A DNA stretch of 64,000 nt from Gemmatimonas sp. (GTDB taxonomy: Bacteria > Gemmatimonadota > Gemmatimonadetes > Gemmatimonadales > Gemmatimonadaceae): NCBI RefSeq assembly GCF_027531815.1, contig NZ_JAPZSK010000014.1:124001-188000 (forward strand), given 5' to 3'. The notes under the pieces are model-generated. The model worked only from the letters and a program-made list of their open reading frames with translations, was not told the DNA's origin and ran no database searches. The position numbers and the translations under genes are program-made. Below are positions 11,802-19,249 of this stretch, piece after piece. The first letter of the stretch is position 1. Every line of letters begins with the position of its first letter.

Positions 11802-12371
11802 CTACGCTGGCCCGACCACCTCGGTGAAGAACGGATCCAACACGATCACGAAGGGCGCGATGGCGCCCGCCGGCTGCCACACCAGCTCCTCCGTGTGGAT
11901 GCTTGGTCGTTCCTCGCCTGGCATCCAGCGCTCCACCAGACGCGAGTCGAGATCCACGATCCAGTACTCGATTCCCGCCCGCAGGTATCGCTCGCGTTTC
12001 ACCACGCGATCGAACCGCGCGGTACCCGGTGAAAGGACTTCCACGAACAGGAGCGCCTGCGCGCGCTCCTCGTAGGTCCGTGGCCGCCGCCCCTCCACCA
12101 GGGGCACCACGTAGAGGTCCGGCTGAACCAGTGTTCGGACGTCGAGCACCCATTCCGATGGCGCGACGAACACCGTGCCCACCCCGGCCGGGCGCACCAG
12201 CCCTTCCAGCAAGACGTTCAGCGCGGATACCGCGCCCTGGTGTGCGAGTCGCGGCGTCGGGCTCACCAGCAGCACCCCATCCACGCACTCGTACCGGTGC
12301 GACGGGTCGTCGGGGAGCGCCTGAACCTCGGCAGCGGTCCAGAGGCGATCGGCAAGGACGGGCATGGCCAT
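11802..12371 (-). CDS. Uma2 family protein (DUF820, PD-(D/E)XK fold), copy 1
   Basis: Uma2 proteins carry a restriction-endonuclease-like fold and are abundant in cyanobacteria and some other phyla; no cellular role is settled. Start ATG at 12371 gives 189 residues (MAMPVLADRLWTAAEVQAL). Family features: HRYECVDGVLLVSPTP near the N terminus, PDLYVVP, then LLFVEVLSPGTARFDRVVKR, with the D and E-x-V/K residues of the nuclease core, and IEYWIVDLDSRLVERW. It is nearly the same as the gene at 18680-19249 (about 34 differences in 189 aligned residues), and the similarity runs into the 5' flank. Confidence 0.88.
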   Translation of the reverse strand: MAMPVLADRLWTAAEVQALPDDPSHRYECVDGVLLVSPTPRLAHQGAVSALNVLLEGLVRPAGVGTVFVAPSEWVLDVRTLVQPDLYVVPLVEGRRPRTYEERAQALLFVEVLSPGTARFDRVVKRERYLRAGIEYWIVDLDSRLVERWMPGEERPSIHTEELVWQPAGAIAPFVIVLDPFFTEVVGPA

Positions 12372-12609: not shown

Positions 12610-13761
12610 ATGAGGCTCGCATCCCTTCGTGCCGGGTGGCTGGTGGCCGTGGCGCTGCTGCTGCCGGCCTGCCGCTCGATGAGCCGCGCCACACCCCATG
12701 TGTCGGGGGTCGCGGATACGGTCTTCTACGTGTCGGCGCGCGCGCGCGCCGAGGGGCGGGATTCGCGCGAGCGCGCGCTGGCGCTCGAATACGGCATGGC
12801 CGTCATGCAGCGCCACCGGGGCACCCCCGAAGACCGTGGGGTGGGCCGCGACATCGTGGATAGCGTCCTGCTCGATTCCGCGCGGTTCGTCGAGCAGCTC
12901 CGGACGCGCGTGCAGGTGCAGCGCGCACCACTCGACCTGGCGATGCTGTATGTGCACGGCATGGGCACCTCGTTGCACGAGGCGTGGCAGTACACGGCCG
13001 CCGCGTCGGTGCAGAGTGGTACGCAGGTACCCTGGATCGTCTTCTGCTGGCCGGTCAGCGGTACAGGCGTGAGTCGACCGCAGCCCCATGCGTTCTTCAC
13101 CGCCGGGTACCACCGGGACGCCGCCATGGCGGACAGCGCCGGGGCGGCGTTCGCTCTGGCATTCAGCGTCGTGCGGACGGCGGTGCCGAGTACGCAGCTG
13201 GTGGTGGTGTCGCACTCCCTGGGGGGCCAGCTGGTGGGGCGGGCACTGCACGAGGACAGCACGCTGCGCGCAGGGCTCGAGCAGGCGCCGCTGCGCGCCC
13301 TGGTGTTCGCCATCCCCGACGTGAACGCCCAGGCGTTCAACGACACGCTGGCCCCGGCGCTGCGCTACACGGCCGCCCGGCGCGTGGTGTACGTAACGCG
13401 CAACGATCGCGCGATGATGATCGCGCGCCGCATCAACGGGACGCCGCGTGCCGGCTTGCGGACAGATGACGACTGGCGTGCTCCCGATTCGGCGCTCGTG
13501 GAAACCGTGGACGTCACGAACGCGGCCACCACCGAGGGGTGGTTTCAATCGCGCTTCGGCAGCCACCACGCCATCAAGCGCAAGACCGGGCTGCTCGTGG
13601 ACCTGGTCGTGATCGTCGGTGCCCTGCGCGACGCCACCTGCCGATCGCGCGGAGGCTTTGGCGAGGCCGACGCCGACGGGATCTGGCGACTGCAGCGCGT
13701 GGTGCCAACGACCAGCGACCTGCTCGCGTGCCCCACCATGTACAATGGAGCGCCACGATGA
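12610..13761 (+). CDS. DUF900-type alpha/beta hydrolase, lipoprotein
   Basis: 383-residue exported hydrolase. The N terminus is a lipoprotein signal (LVAVALLLPACRSM, lipobox LPAC), so it is anchored in a membrane. The alpha/beta hydrolase core has DLAMLYVHGMGTS, then the nucleophile elbow VVVSHSLGGQ with Ser203. This layout matches DUF900 (PF05990), whose members act on unknown esters. GGGAG lies 4 bases before the ATG. Its TGA overlaps the ATG of the following PLD-like gene (ATGA), so the two are translated together and likely act in the same envelope process. A late Cys pair (ATCRSRG, LLACPTM) could form a disulfide. Confidence 0.82.
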   Translation: MRLASLRAGWLVAVALLLPACRSMSRATPHVSGVADTVFYVSARARAEGRDSRERALALEYGMAVMQRHRGTPEDRGVGRDIVDSVLLDSARFVEQLRTRVQVQRAPLDLAMLYVHGMGTSLHEAWQYTAAASVQSGTQVPWIVFCWPVSGTGVSRPQPHAFFTAGYHRDAAMADSAGAAFALAFSVVRTAVPSTQLVVVSHSLGGQLVGRALHEDSTLRAGLEQAPLRALVFAIPDVNAQAFNDTLAPALRYTAARRVVYVTRNDRAMMIARRINGTPRAGLRTDDDWRAPDSALVETVDVTNAATTEGWFQSRFGSHHAIKRKTGLLVDLVVIVGALRDATCRSRGGFGEADADGIWRLQRVVPTTSDLLACPTMYNGAPR

Positions 13762-16700
13762 GGCGCGCCCTGCGCATCACGCTCGTGGCCGCCAGCCTCA
13801 CCGTGCCGACGGCGGCGACGGGACAGCCACCGACGCGACTGCCGGCCGACGGCGGTACCACCTTTTCGCTGGGACAACCCGGGGTATGGCTGCCAACCGG
13901 CGGTCTCTCCACCGGGATCGAACGTCGCGAGGGGGAACGCGTCACGGTTACCGAAGTGCGCGGTGGCATGTACGTCGAACTACTCAGCCGTGTGCTCGGT
14001 CTCGGTGGCCTTCATGCCGAGGGGTACGGTGGGCTGCTCGACACCCGCTTCAACGGCGGTGTGCGCCTGCGCGCCGTCTCGCCGTTCCTGCGACTCGGCA
14101 TCGGCGTGGACTACAGTGGACTGGACAAGCAGGTGCGGCCGCTCGTGTCGTTCACCCATCCGGTACGTCGTGGTGGCGTGCGTCACGATGGCAGCATGAT
14201 GCGCATCGATTATCGCGGTGGCCCCGAACGCATGATCACCGTAGGGGTCGATGTGCCGTTCCTGCGGAAGATTCCCCTCGGGACCACGCGCCCGCGTGAG
14301 GATCGCGTGGTGCTCCGCGATCGCGCGAGTCCCGAGGCGCCGCTGCCCGCGGGGCGCGCGGCCATGGCGGCAGCACTGGACAGCGCTCGTCAGGCGGCGC
14401 TCCGCATTCAGGAACTCGTCGTGCCCTGGGCCGACCATACGGGCGGCGGCGGCGCCGCCAGCGACACCGCCGTGGTGCAGCGGCTGCGGCGCATCGGCGC
14501 GCTGGCGCGTGGCACCACGTTGGAGGTCGAGGTCCGGCGGTGGCACGCGGCGCTCGATGTGGCCTTCTCCGCGGCGCTGCACAACGGGTCCGACGATACG
14601 GCCCAGGTCACCCCCGCAGGGCGGCGGGCCGCCGAGGCGGCACGCGACGTGCTGCTCGACGAAGTGATCGTGCCCTACGACCGTCTGCTCGGTCAGGCGA
14701 AGGACCGCGACACCACGCGCGATTTCGCCCTGCTGGCCCGCGGCGCGTTCCTGCGCTGGCTGCACGTGCAGGGCGGCATGCCGCGCCAGGCCATGCCCGA
14801 TGCCCTGGGCGTGTTCGGTGAGGTGCTCGACATCGTGGAGGAGGTGCGGCGCACCGCGCACGCGCAATGGAACGGCTCCCGTTTCGTGTGGCTCCCGTTG
14901 CAGCTCGCGCTGCTGCCGGAGCGACACGACACCCAGCAGGAGCTCGACGCGCTGGTGGCGCGCATGGCCGGCGAACCGGTAACGGAGGGGAATGACATCT
15001 CGTACGTGATCAACGAGCAGTTCCAGTACCAGCTGAGCCGCACGGTGCATGCGGCCCGCGAGTACCACGTGCTCTGGACCCACGACTTTCGGGGCAAGGA
15101 CGCGCGCGGCGATCCCGACGAGATGAGCTTCCGCCATGTCCTGCGCTCCTACCTGGCGGCCATGACGGCGCGCGTGCGCGAGTACGACAGCACGGGGGTC
15201 TTTCCCACGTACCTGATCATTCTCGATGAGTGGTTCTATCGCGCCAACACCTCGCGCCTGTGGCTGGACCTGCTCGAGGACCCGCTGGCGCACCGCGTGC
15301 GATTGCGGGAGGGGTTCGGTGCCTGGGAGGATTCGCTCGCGGCGGCGCAGCAGGCGCTGCGCGACGCCGTGTCGCGCTCATCGTTGCTTTCGGCGCAGCG
15401 CCGGCACTACGGCGAAAGATGGTTGCGATCGCTGCTGAAGGTGCACGTGAACATCACCAATGTCTCCGACCCCTCGTTCACGAGTTGGCGCGTAGCGACG
15501 GCCTTTCCGGTGCCCGATACCTGGATGCGTGACCACCGCAAACTGGTGGTGTACGACGTGTCCGAGCGCGACCCCTATCGCGGCGAGTCCATCGTGACCG
15601 GTGCCGGGATCGGGGAGCATTACGCGAATCTCTCCTGGGAGGATCGCTCGCTGCTCGTACGCGGACCGGCCAATCTGTCCCTCAAGACGGCGGCCCGGGA
15701 GCTGCTCCTGAGTCAGGGGGTGTCCCCCGACCGCATCCCTGCGGTGCTGCGCCCGCTGCCGCTGGCGCCCGACTACGCCGCGCTCGTGGAGCGGAACCGC
15801 GGCACCGTGGGGCGCGACCTGCGTGCGTTGCTCCTGCAGAACCGCACCGGATACGCGGACAAGAGCCTCAACGTCACGAAGGCGCTGCTCTACACGCTCA
15901 TGCCCGCGGGCTCCGTCATCAAGATTCCCGATTCGCTGTGGAACGGGACCTTCTGGGGCAGTGCGCTGCTGGGGGCCGCATTGCGTGGGGTGCGCGTGCT
16001 GGTGATTGCGCCCACGCTGGCCAACGCGCCAGCGCGCGCCTTCGGGTCGATGATTCGCAGTCGCGAGCTGCTCTGGCGCTTGGTCATGGCCGAGCAGCTG
16101 TTCGGCGACGTCATTCGCCGCGAGGGCGGCCTGCTCAAGGTGGGCTTGTACGCGTCGGAGATTCCCGTGAGCAATGTGCCGGGCAAGATCCTGTCCGTGC
16201 GTACCACGCTGGCCCGCGAGCCATGGCTGCGCGACCTGTTTGCCTTCCCGCCCAGTGTGTACGAGGGGCTCGACGAGCTCGCCGCCACGCTTGGGGCGCT
16301 GCCGACGCCGGTGCGCGACGGCAACGAGTTCGAGGCACGGGAACGGCCGCTGCTGCATCTCAAGGCCAACTTCATCGCCAGCCGCGAAGCCTGGTCGGTG
16401 ATGGCCCGCCGCGATTGGGTGGAGCTGACCCGCGAGTTCGTGCCACGCCGCATGTCGCAACTGCAGGCACGTGGCGCCGCCGTGGCCTCGTTCGGCGACA
16501 CCACCGGTGCCCGCATTGATGTGGGCGGCGACGTGGTGCGCCGCTGGTACGAGGCACTCCCCGCCGCACAACGCGACCGGGTGGTGTTCTATACCCTCAT
16601 CGGGTCGGCCAACCAGAACGATCGCAGCATGGTCAGTGATGGCGAGGCCTCCCTGCTCATGGCCGGCTGGCCCTCGGTGACTGCCACCATCGATCTCATC

Positions 16701-16814
16701 TCGCTCATCGGCCAGTCACGCTGGATCGACGATCCCGCCGTGCTCGACCAGCTGCTTCCCCGACGCAGCGCCGTGGCGACACGCATCGCCCACTGGTTCA
16801 AGTTCGCGTTCTGA
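13758..16814 (+). CDS. Very large secreted phospholipase D-like protein
   Basis: 1,018 residues, start ATG at 13758 overlapping the upstream hydrolase stop. A Sec signal (ALRITLVAASLTVPTAATG) is followed by ~130 residues rich in Gly and alternating hydrophobics (GGMYVELLSRVLGLGGLHAEG, FLRLGIGVDYS) that resemble outer-membrane beta strands. The C-terminal half has two PLD-type HKD motifs. The first is intact: HRKLVVYD at ~593, later ENLSWEDR-like context. The second, HLKANFIA at ~867, has Ala where Asp is expected, followed by GSANQNDRS at ~949. Enzymes of this superfamily cleave phosphodiesters by a His nucleophile. Known bacterial PLDs are about 500 residues, so over 450 residues between signal and first HKD are unexplained. 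Confidence 0.72.
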   Translation: MRRALRITLVAASLTVPTAATGQPPTRLPADGGTTFSLGQPGVWLPTGGLSTGIERREGERVTVTEVRGGMYVELLSRVLGLGGLHAEGYGGLLDTRFNGGVRLRAVSPFLRLGIGVDYSGLDKQVRPLVSFTHPVRRGGVRHDGSMMRIDYRGGPERMITVGVDVPFLRKIPLGTTRPREDRVVLRDRASPEAPLPAGRAAMAAALDSARQAALRIQELVVPWADHTGGGGAASDTAVVQRLRRIGALARGTTLEVEVRRWHAALDVAFSAALHNGSDDTAQVTPAGRRAAEAARDVLLDEVIVPYDRLLGQAKDRDTTRDFALLARGAFLRWLHVQGGMPRQAMPDALGVFGEVLDIVEEVRRTAHAQWNGSRFVWLPLQLALLPERHDTQQELDALVARMAGEPVTEGNDISYVINEQFQYQLSRTVHAAREYHVLWTHDFRGKDARGDPDEMSFRHVLRSYLAAMTARVREYDSTGVFPTYLIILDEWFYRANTSRLWLDLLEDPLAHRVRLREGFGAWEDSLAAAQQALRDAVSRSSLLSAQRRHYGERWLRSLLKVHVNITNVSDPSFTSWRVATAFPVPDTWMRDHRKLVVYDVSERDPYRGESIVTGAGIGEHYANLSWEDRSLLVRGPANLSLKTAARELLLSQGVSPDRIPAVLRPLPLAPDYAALVERNRGTVGRDLRALLLQNRTGYADKSLNVTKALLYTLMPAGSVIKIPDSLWNGTFWGSALLGAALRGVRVLVIAPTLANAPARAFGSMIRSRELLWRLVMAEQLFGDVIRREGGLLKVGLYASEIPVSNVPGKILSVRTTLAREPWLRDLFAFPPSVYEGLDELAATLGALPTPVRDGNEFEARERPLLHLKANFIASREAWSVMARRDWVELTREFVPRRMSQLQARGAAVASFGDTTGARIDVGGDVVRRWYEALPAAQRDRVVFYTLIGSANQNDRSMVSDGEASLLMAGWPSVTATIDLISLIGQSRWIDDPAVLDQLLPRRSAVATRIAHWFKFAF

Positions 16815-18665: not shown

Positions 18666-18692
18666 CGGCCCCGCCTGGTTCAGGCGGGGCCG
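18666..18692. terminator. Hairpin at the 3' ends of yegP-like and Uma2 copy 2
   Basis: Perfect 11-bp stem (CGGCCCCGCCT with its complement) and loop GGTTC, 18 bases past the plus-strand stop and spanning the stop codon of the minus-strand Uma2 gene. It lies between convergent genes. There is no T-run on either side, so its efficiency is unclear. Confidence 0.5.
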
Positions 18693-19249
18693 AGGACCTC
18701 GGTGAAGAACGGCCCGAGGTCGATGACGAACGCCCGCTCCGCGCCGGTCGGCTGCCACTCGATCCGGTCGGCGTGGATGCTCGGGCGTTCGTCGTGCGGC
18801 AGCCACCGTTCCACCAGCCGCGAGTCGAGATCGACGATCCAGTACTCGATGCCGGCCCGTTGGTAGCGACCCCGCTTCACCACCCGATCGAACCGGGCCG
18901 TGCTCGGTGACAGGATCTCGACGAACAGCAGCGCCTCGGTGCGCTCCTCGTAGGTGCGCGGGCGGCGGCCGTCCGTGAGCGGCACCACGTAGAGATCCGA
19001 CTGGACCAGTGTCCGGGGGTCGAGCATCCACTCCGACGGCGCCACGAACACCGTGCCCACCCCCGCCGGGCGGACGAGCGATTCGAGCAAGAAGCCGAGC
19101 GCCGACACGGCGCCCTGATGGGCGAGGCGTGGCGTGGGGCTCACCAGCAGTTCCCCGTCCACGCACTCGTAGCGGTGCGACGGATCGTCCGGCAGCGCCT
19201 GCACCTCGGCGGCGGTCCAGACACGGGGCATGAGCGCGGGCATGGCCAT
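18680..19249 (-). CDS. Uma2 family protein (DUF820), copy 2
   Basis: 189 residues from ATG at 19249 (second possible start 19243), the same length as copy 1 at 11802-12371 and about 82% identical by eye. Core motifs are kept: HRYECVDGELLVSPTP, SDLYVVPL, LLFVEILSPSTARFD, IEYWIVDLDSRLVERW. Differences cluster in the first ten residues and in the last 40 (IHADRIEWQPTGAERAF). The bases just upstream of both starts also match, so promoter and start were copied with the gene. Cellular role unknown. Confidence 0.88.
   Translation of the reverse strand: MAMPALMPRVWTAAEVQALPDDPSHRYECVDGELLVSPTPRLAHQGAVSALGFLLESLVRPAGVGTVFVAPSEWMLDPRTLVQSDLYVVPLTDGRRPRTYEERTEALLFVEILSPSTARFDRVVKRGRYQRAGIEYWIVDLDSRLVERWLPHDERPSIHADRIEWQPTGAERAFVIDLGPFFTEVLGPA

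Follow-up and report, generated by a model that had tools for sequence, protein, structure and literature searches.

What would a phospholipase D (PLD)-like protein of unusual length do at the cell envelope of a Gemmatimonas species, and does the lipase-like gene that overlaps it belong to the same function? Both genes lie in a stretch of 64,000 nucleotides (the window; contig NZ_JAPZSK010000014.1, positions 124,001 to 188,000), where a preliminary description had read them as a pair of exported hydrolases that cuts or remodels envelope lipids. Its coordinates and four-base ATGA overlap were correct, and both genes lie on the + strand; positions below are those of the window.

12610..13761, + strand: gene of a DUF900 alpha/beta-hydrolase lipoprotein, 383 residues (PF05990 match; conserved probable triad)
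13758..16814, + strand: gene of the long protein, barrel-PLD, 1,018 residues (56 full-length relatives; AlphaFold2 model)
13758..13761, + strand: ATGA, where the stop of the first gene overlaps the start of the second (shared by six of the seven orthologous pairs)

As had been noticed, barrel-PLD is about twice as long as typical cardiolipin synthases (Cls) and other PLD enzymes (~400-500 residues). Both products read as exported from their sequences, the DUF900 protein by a lipobox and barrel-PLD by an N-terminal signal. We suggest that barrel-PLD is a lipid enzyme, a phospholipid phosphatidyltransferase or hydrolase, anchored at the outer membrane, and we give this reading a probability of about 0.6.

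Whole genomes and the GTDB contig collection supplied the relatives, of which 56 full-length members were aligned. An AlphaFold2 model of the full protein, built on a 56-row alignment, reached a predicted local distance difference test score (pLDDT) of 89.8 and a predicted template modelling score (pTM) of 0.91. It places eight strands (residues 44-167) before a series of helices (~200-404) and an alpha/beta region that runs to the C-terminus.

13758..13823, + strand: Sec-type signal peptide, about residues 1-22, without a lipobox (sequence; signal-like start in relatives)
13887..14258, + strand: predicted eight-stranded beta-barrel, residues 44-167 (AlphaFold2; OprF, NspA, PagL and OmpA matches; strand alternation)
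14340..14927, + strand: predicted helical domain, about residues 195-390 (DSSP of the model)
14928..16811, + strand: PLD-fold domain, about residues 391-1018 (VIA-align, Foldseek)
16770..16811, + strand: predicted cationic amphipathic C-terminal helix, residues 1005-1018 (hydrophobic moment; helix in the model)

Residues 379-1018 match the phosphatidylserine synthase PssA of E. coli (VIA-align: Z 21.4, 3.1 A, 366 residues) and PLD enzymes in general at Z 17-21, including vaccinia F13, PLD3, PLD4 and Streptomyces PLD; Foldseek also finds the PLD fold (E 5.6e-8). The glycine-rich beta region that the preliminary description had placed behind the signal corresponds to the barrel; the N-terminal domain folded alone gave the identical eight strands (pLDDT 83.7, pTM 0.74). 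In structural comparison this domain ranks closest to a designed transmembrane barrel, OprF, NspA, PagL, OmpA and OmpW (Z 13-15; 13.6-14.8 for OprF, NspA, PagL and OmpA), and its top Foldseek match is the OmpA barrel (E 3.2e-3). Strand alternation exceeds that of shuffled columns (7 runs, as many as only 5 of 5,000 shuffles reach). The hydrophobic face of the strands is 4% charged and the polar face 29%, the latter carrying the conserved E88, R103, D118 and G116, and the last strand ends G-V-D-V-P-F, like the beta-signal of the barrel assembly machinery (BAM). The C-terminal helix has a median hydrophobic moment of 0.55, against a background of 0.26, and a net charge of +3. Structure prediction of 13758-16814, proposed beforehand as a check, has thus returned an eight-stranded barrel together with a PLD fold, and we are highly confident of an architecture in which a helical spacer links an N-terminal OmpA-like barrel to a Cls-like PLD domain.

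At the sequence level the family is remote from curated profiles. Single-sequence searches of Pfam, NCBIfam, PHROGs, PADLOC and the PDB gave zero matches for barrel-PLD, and PLDc_2 is the sole Pfam family that recurs among its relatives, weakly and in 13 of 48 (best E 7.4e-4). Profile-profile comparison (hhalign) with Cls-type PLDs of related genomes gave 96.3% and E 1.9e-9, covering HKD1 and the GxGIGE...WxD...GP stretch; the second PLD half aligns at GSxN...E (E 2.2e-4). The controls were clean, neither the N-terminal region nor reversed Cls sequences giving anything. Among E. coli enzymes ClsC scores highest, followed by ClsB and ClsA, and PssA is not significant. No internal repeat was detected between the two PLD halves.

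15534..15557, + strand: HKD1, HRKLVVYD, residues 593-600 (H, R, K and D invariant, 56/56)
15600..15647, + strand: GxGxGE...WxDR stretch, residues 615-630, behind HKD1 (all three Gly plus W, D and R unchanged; lines up with GGMNIGEE..WRD of Cls-type enzymes)
16356..16379, + strand: HKD2 without its Asp, HLKANFIA, residues 867-874 (H and K invariant)
16602..16646, + strand: GSxNxxxR...DxE motif, residues 949-963 (G, N, R, D and E invariant, 56/56; aligns with GSSNLDFRS..NxE of Cls, E 2.2e-4)

The residues invariant throughout the alignment are H593, R594, K595, D600, G615, G617, G619, W627, D629, R630, H867, K869, G949, N952, R956, D961 and E963. As had been described, one HKD motif is intact (H593-R-K595-x4-D600) and the other has Ala for Asp (H867-x-K869-x4-A874); across the relatives position 874 is Ala in 43, Ile in 8, Val in 2 and otherwise Met, Phe or Leu, and Asp in none. 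The profile search proposed for the HKD domain, whose failure was to count as a refutation, was negative with single-sequence Pfam, but profile-profile and fold evidence overturns that outcome. The long protein is a member of the PLD superfamily by fold and HKD1, lying below the cut-offs of the curated profiles (PF13091, PF00614), and the earlier reading by eye, a barrel-like head joined to a domain of the PLD superfamily, is borne out by hhalign, the fold matches of the model and the invariant motifs. Some candidates were set aside: apolipoprotein A-I, the main result of a first PDB profile search, was a composition match to the helical segment only; long PLD-bearing proteins on contigs C20 and C23 of the same genome (~1,045-1,062 residues) are different proteins; and a defence-system reading was rejected on the absence of a PADLOC match and the export of both products.

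The barrel would be inserted in the outer membrane and, with eight strands as in OmpA, would have both ends in the periplasm. An even strand number and the periplasmic ends of BAM-inserted barrels would therefore turn the PLD domain towards the inner leaflet, against which it would lie with the aid of the cationic C-terminal helix. The outer membrane of the host is likely of the lipopolysaccharide type, because LpxC is present in the genome. The barrel connections on the side of the termini (NPVxGL, PxRRGGxxGxG) are longer and highly conserved and those on the far side short; this conservation fits contact with the PLD domain. In the reaction, one HKD His would form a phosphohistidine with the phosphatidyl group of a membrane phospholipid and the other would act as general acid. 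The group would pass to water, yielding phosphatidic acid, or to another lipid in a Cls-type transfer, and affinity in sequence to Cls enzymes suggests such transfer or hydrolysis. The missing Asp of HKD2 may slow or change the reaction, whose net effect would be remodelling of outer-membrane phospholipids. Action of the exported protein on envelope lipids, as first proposed, is plausible.

Several observations weigh against a lipid enzyme in the outer membrane. The fold matches also include the nucleases PLD3 and PLD4, and PPK1, so that a lipid substrate is not proven. The PLD domain could instead be a barrel-anchored nuclease of the PLD3/PLD4 or NucT kind, periplasmic or at the surface, which degrades or processes DNA at the envelope. 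PLD3 and PLD4 resemble it closely in fold (Z 19-20), and PMC5714352 places envelope-linked nucleases such as NucT in the PLD superfamily. However, in comparisons that covered Cls-type PLDs but not individual nuclease profiles, the sequence is closest to Cls enzymes in the stretch after HKD1, ClsC is the best match among the E. coli Cls and PssA enzymes, and the neighbours are Omp85 and lipase-like DUF900 genes, with no DNA-uptake genes. We consider a nuclease unlikely.

A second objection is the lack of Asp in HKD2 in every member (56/56), considering that Acinetobacter ClsD, with Tyr in place of this Asp, has little Cls activity (PMC12846801). Barrel-PLD might be a catalytically dead or weak pseudo-enzyme whose role in the outer membrane is structural or lipid binding. 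Yet a dead enzyme would have no need to keep both His-Lys pairs, the Asp of HKD1 and the GSxN-motif residues Asn, Arg and Glu, all of which are invariant. Moreover, TDP1-type enzymes of the superfamily function with HxK lacking the Asp. A pseudo-enzyme appears as improbable as a nuclease.

The remaining objections concern the barrel: its loop lengths are reversed from the usual pattern, and comparison of entropy between its two faces was not significant (p 0.47). Short hairpins and reversed loops could belong to a soluble barrel, the enzyme being free or peripherally bound in the periplasm, and the barrel alone has zero sequence matches in Pfam or the PDB. This is nevertheless quite unlikely, since the top structural matches are almost all transmembrane barrels, the strands alternate strongly and the charged polar face carries invariant residues. 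We retain the outer-membrane lipid enzyme as the likelier reading. Because of the reversed loops, however, we hold the predicted position of the PLD domain on the periplasmic side of the outer membrane at about three chances in four.

The second part of the question concerns the overlapping lipoprotein gene. Its product matches PF05990 well above the cut-off (E 7.8e-19; 68.5 bits versus 20.5), no other match to this family was found in the source genome, and its probable triad, S203-D266-H320, is conserved in 16 homologues.

12661..12672, + strand: LPAC lipobox with Cys21, DUF900 protein (sequence; Cys aligned in most homologues)
13216..13218, + strand: Ser203 within SHSLGG, probable nucleophile of the DUF900 hydrolase (unchanged across the 16 homologues aligned)

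This esterase- or lipase-like hydrolase, co-translated with barrel-PLD, would probably act on the same lipids or their products, as an optional accessory in the clade that has the pair. The proposed search of other Gemmatimonadota genomes found the pair in Gemmatimonadaceae: the two genes stand in tandem in seven species (the window, G069, G133, G142, G048, G024 and G054), with the same four-base overlap in all but one pair, which has a gap of ~150 bp. The paired barrel-PLD sequences lie in one clade of this family (tree support 99). Two unpaired members (L040, L063) fall inside it, and the tree therefore probably reflects a single gain followed by two losses. G053 has both genes on separate contigs. 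At other barrel-PLD members with the flank covered there is no DUF900 neighbour, except for one opposite-strand copy nearby. DUF900 orthologues at other loci lack barrel-PLD beside them and adjoin RuBisCO-like, multicopper oxidase or RND-type genes (the last by eye). The conserved gene pair of the preliminary description therefore stands in seven species, whereas the PLD-plus-esterase unit as such is not supported, the pair being restricted to their one clade; the DUF900 partner was added locally, in a single small bacterial group, and is no obligatory half.

Whether the two proteins are functionally coupled is, in our judgement, an even question. Mere co-transcribed neighbourhood with no joint function has a somewhat smaller but real chance: the pair is confined to one clade with unpaired members inside, and elsewhere DUF900 genes adjoin unrelated ones. 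However, both products are exported, and the overlap is kept in 6 of 7 pairs though the PLD proteins differ by up to ~45%. Two side observations concern these genes. In two Gemmatimonadaceae genomes a RuBisCO-like gene overlaps or almost touches the DUF900 lipoprotein gene (L162:4813-6561, L163:7806-9032). G133 has a second, unpaired barrel-PLD paralogue, directly downstream of which lies an alpha/beta-hydrolase-like gene (LLLVHGIGN; L041:5245-6207) with no Pfam match.

Barrel-PLD itself reaches further. In the family 22 of 148 genomes match, in the order 25 of 201 and in the phylum 33 of 298, a few of these marginally, and the distribution is patchy over Gemmatimonadota, Krumholzibacteriota, Latescibacterota and Zixibacteria, with a few metagenome-assembled genomes labelled Acidobacteria or Deltaproteobacteria (named contigs). 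Since a family of ~1,000 residues is kept across several phyla, its conservation is more than chance. An Omp85 gene adjoins barrel-PLD on the same strand at L076, L078, L080 and L090, and convergent Omp85-like genes lie beside it at L066, L083 and L096. These 7 adjacencies compare with an expectation of ~0.2-0.4 over 122 neighbour slots, given 3-8 Omp85 genes in each genome, in a test picked post hoc, after the data had been seen, and with some loci related. A single-POTRA Omp85 gene is a recurrent partner across phyla: in Krumholzibacteriota and Zixibacteria it stands directly behind barrel-PLD (L080:12004-13314, L090:4095-5423, L076:5763-7181), and Pfam finds Omp85 plus one POTRA in these three neighbours. 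In one Gemmatimonadota clade a small secreted barrel-like gene overlaps or directly follows the 3' end of barrel-PLD (L084, L089, L091, L092, L098); coordinates of this beta-rich gene are L084:11961-12536 (no Pfam match), L089:7783-8397 and L098:4422-5051. In the window, two closely similar genes of 189 residues, 11802-12371 and 18680-19249, both on the minus strand, flank the block of DUF900, PLD and M20 genes. Their products (MAMPxLxxRxWTAAEVQALPDDPSHRYECVDG...) resemble the Uma2 family by eye, and the closest relative (L034) has the downstream copy only.

The open-licence literature that was searched yielded no account of an OmpA-like barrel bearing a PLD enzyme, and a search combining PLD, Gemmatimonadota and outer membrane found nothing. 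This is a new architecture within known chemistry. We propose, at slightly less than even odds, that Gemmatimonadota and their neighbouring phyla have an undescribed class of outer-membrane enzymes. In these, a Cls-type phosphatidyltransferase borne by an OmpA-like barrel would face the periplasm and would make or remodel phospholipids inside the outer membrane, with partners interchangeable by lineage (a lipase-like DUF900 lipoprotein, an Omp85 with a single POTRA, small barrel proteins). Before ClsO (2026), phospholipid synthesis was believed to be confined to the inner membrane. If the proposal is true, barrel-PLD, from phyla with hardly studied envelopes, is a second, structurally different way to place a PLD-type lipid enzyme in the outer membrane. 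This would suggest that remodelling of outer-membrane phospholipids arose more than once, and a named gene whose catalytic residues are invariant would be open to testing.

Several known systems share parts of this design. OmpA and OprF likewise have an N-terminal eight-stranded barrel followed by a C-terminal domain, but theirs binds peptidoglycan, whereas barrel-PLD has a PLD fold there and no Pfam match to the OmpA domain. PssA of E. coli (8yr5, 8yr6) is the best fold match, with its Z of 21.4 over 366 residues, but has ~450 residues, no barrel and both HKD motifs intact, and no significant sequence match to barrel-PLD. E. coli ClsC and the Cls-type PLDs of Gemmatimonadota (PF13091) share HKD1 with GxxIGE and WxD..GP and the GSxN...E motif; they have ~400-500 residues, act at the inner membrane and lack the barrel. 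Cardiolipin synthases (ClsA, ClsB, ClsC, ClsO) have two intact HKD motifs and barrel-PLD one. PlpD, a patatin-Omp85 protein, likewise ties a phospholipase-type enzyme to an outer-membrane barrel, as predicted for barrel-PLD; its catalytic domain is periplasmic and its barrel of the single-POTRA Omp85 type (PMC11116518). It joins patatin, POTRA and a 16-stranded barrel in one chain, none of which barrel-PLD has; in the barrel-PLD family Omp85 is a separate neighbouring gene of some relatives only, and the two genes could possibly form an enzyme-Omp85 pair like a split PlpD. In Acinetobacter baumannii the cardiolipin synthase ClsO sits in the outer membrane, exposed at the surface (PMC12846801). 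As predicted for barrel-PLD, it is exported and associated with the outer membrane, has a Cls-type PLD domain closest to ClsC and is scattered among relatives. It is, however, a cell-surface lipoprotein of ~60 kDa whose HKD motifs are both intact (PMC12846801), whereas barrel-PLD has a barrel anchor, 1,018 residues, an Asp-less HKD2, no Cys lipobox and a predicted periplasmic side. By analogy, barrel-PLD would act most like ClsO and PlpD, as a member of neither.

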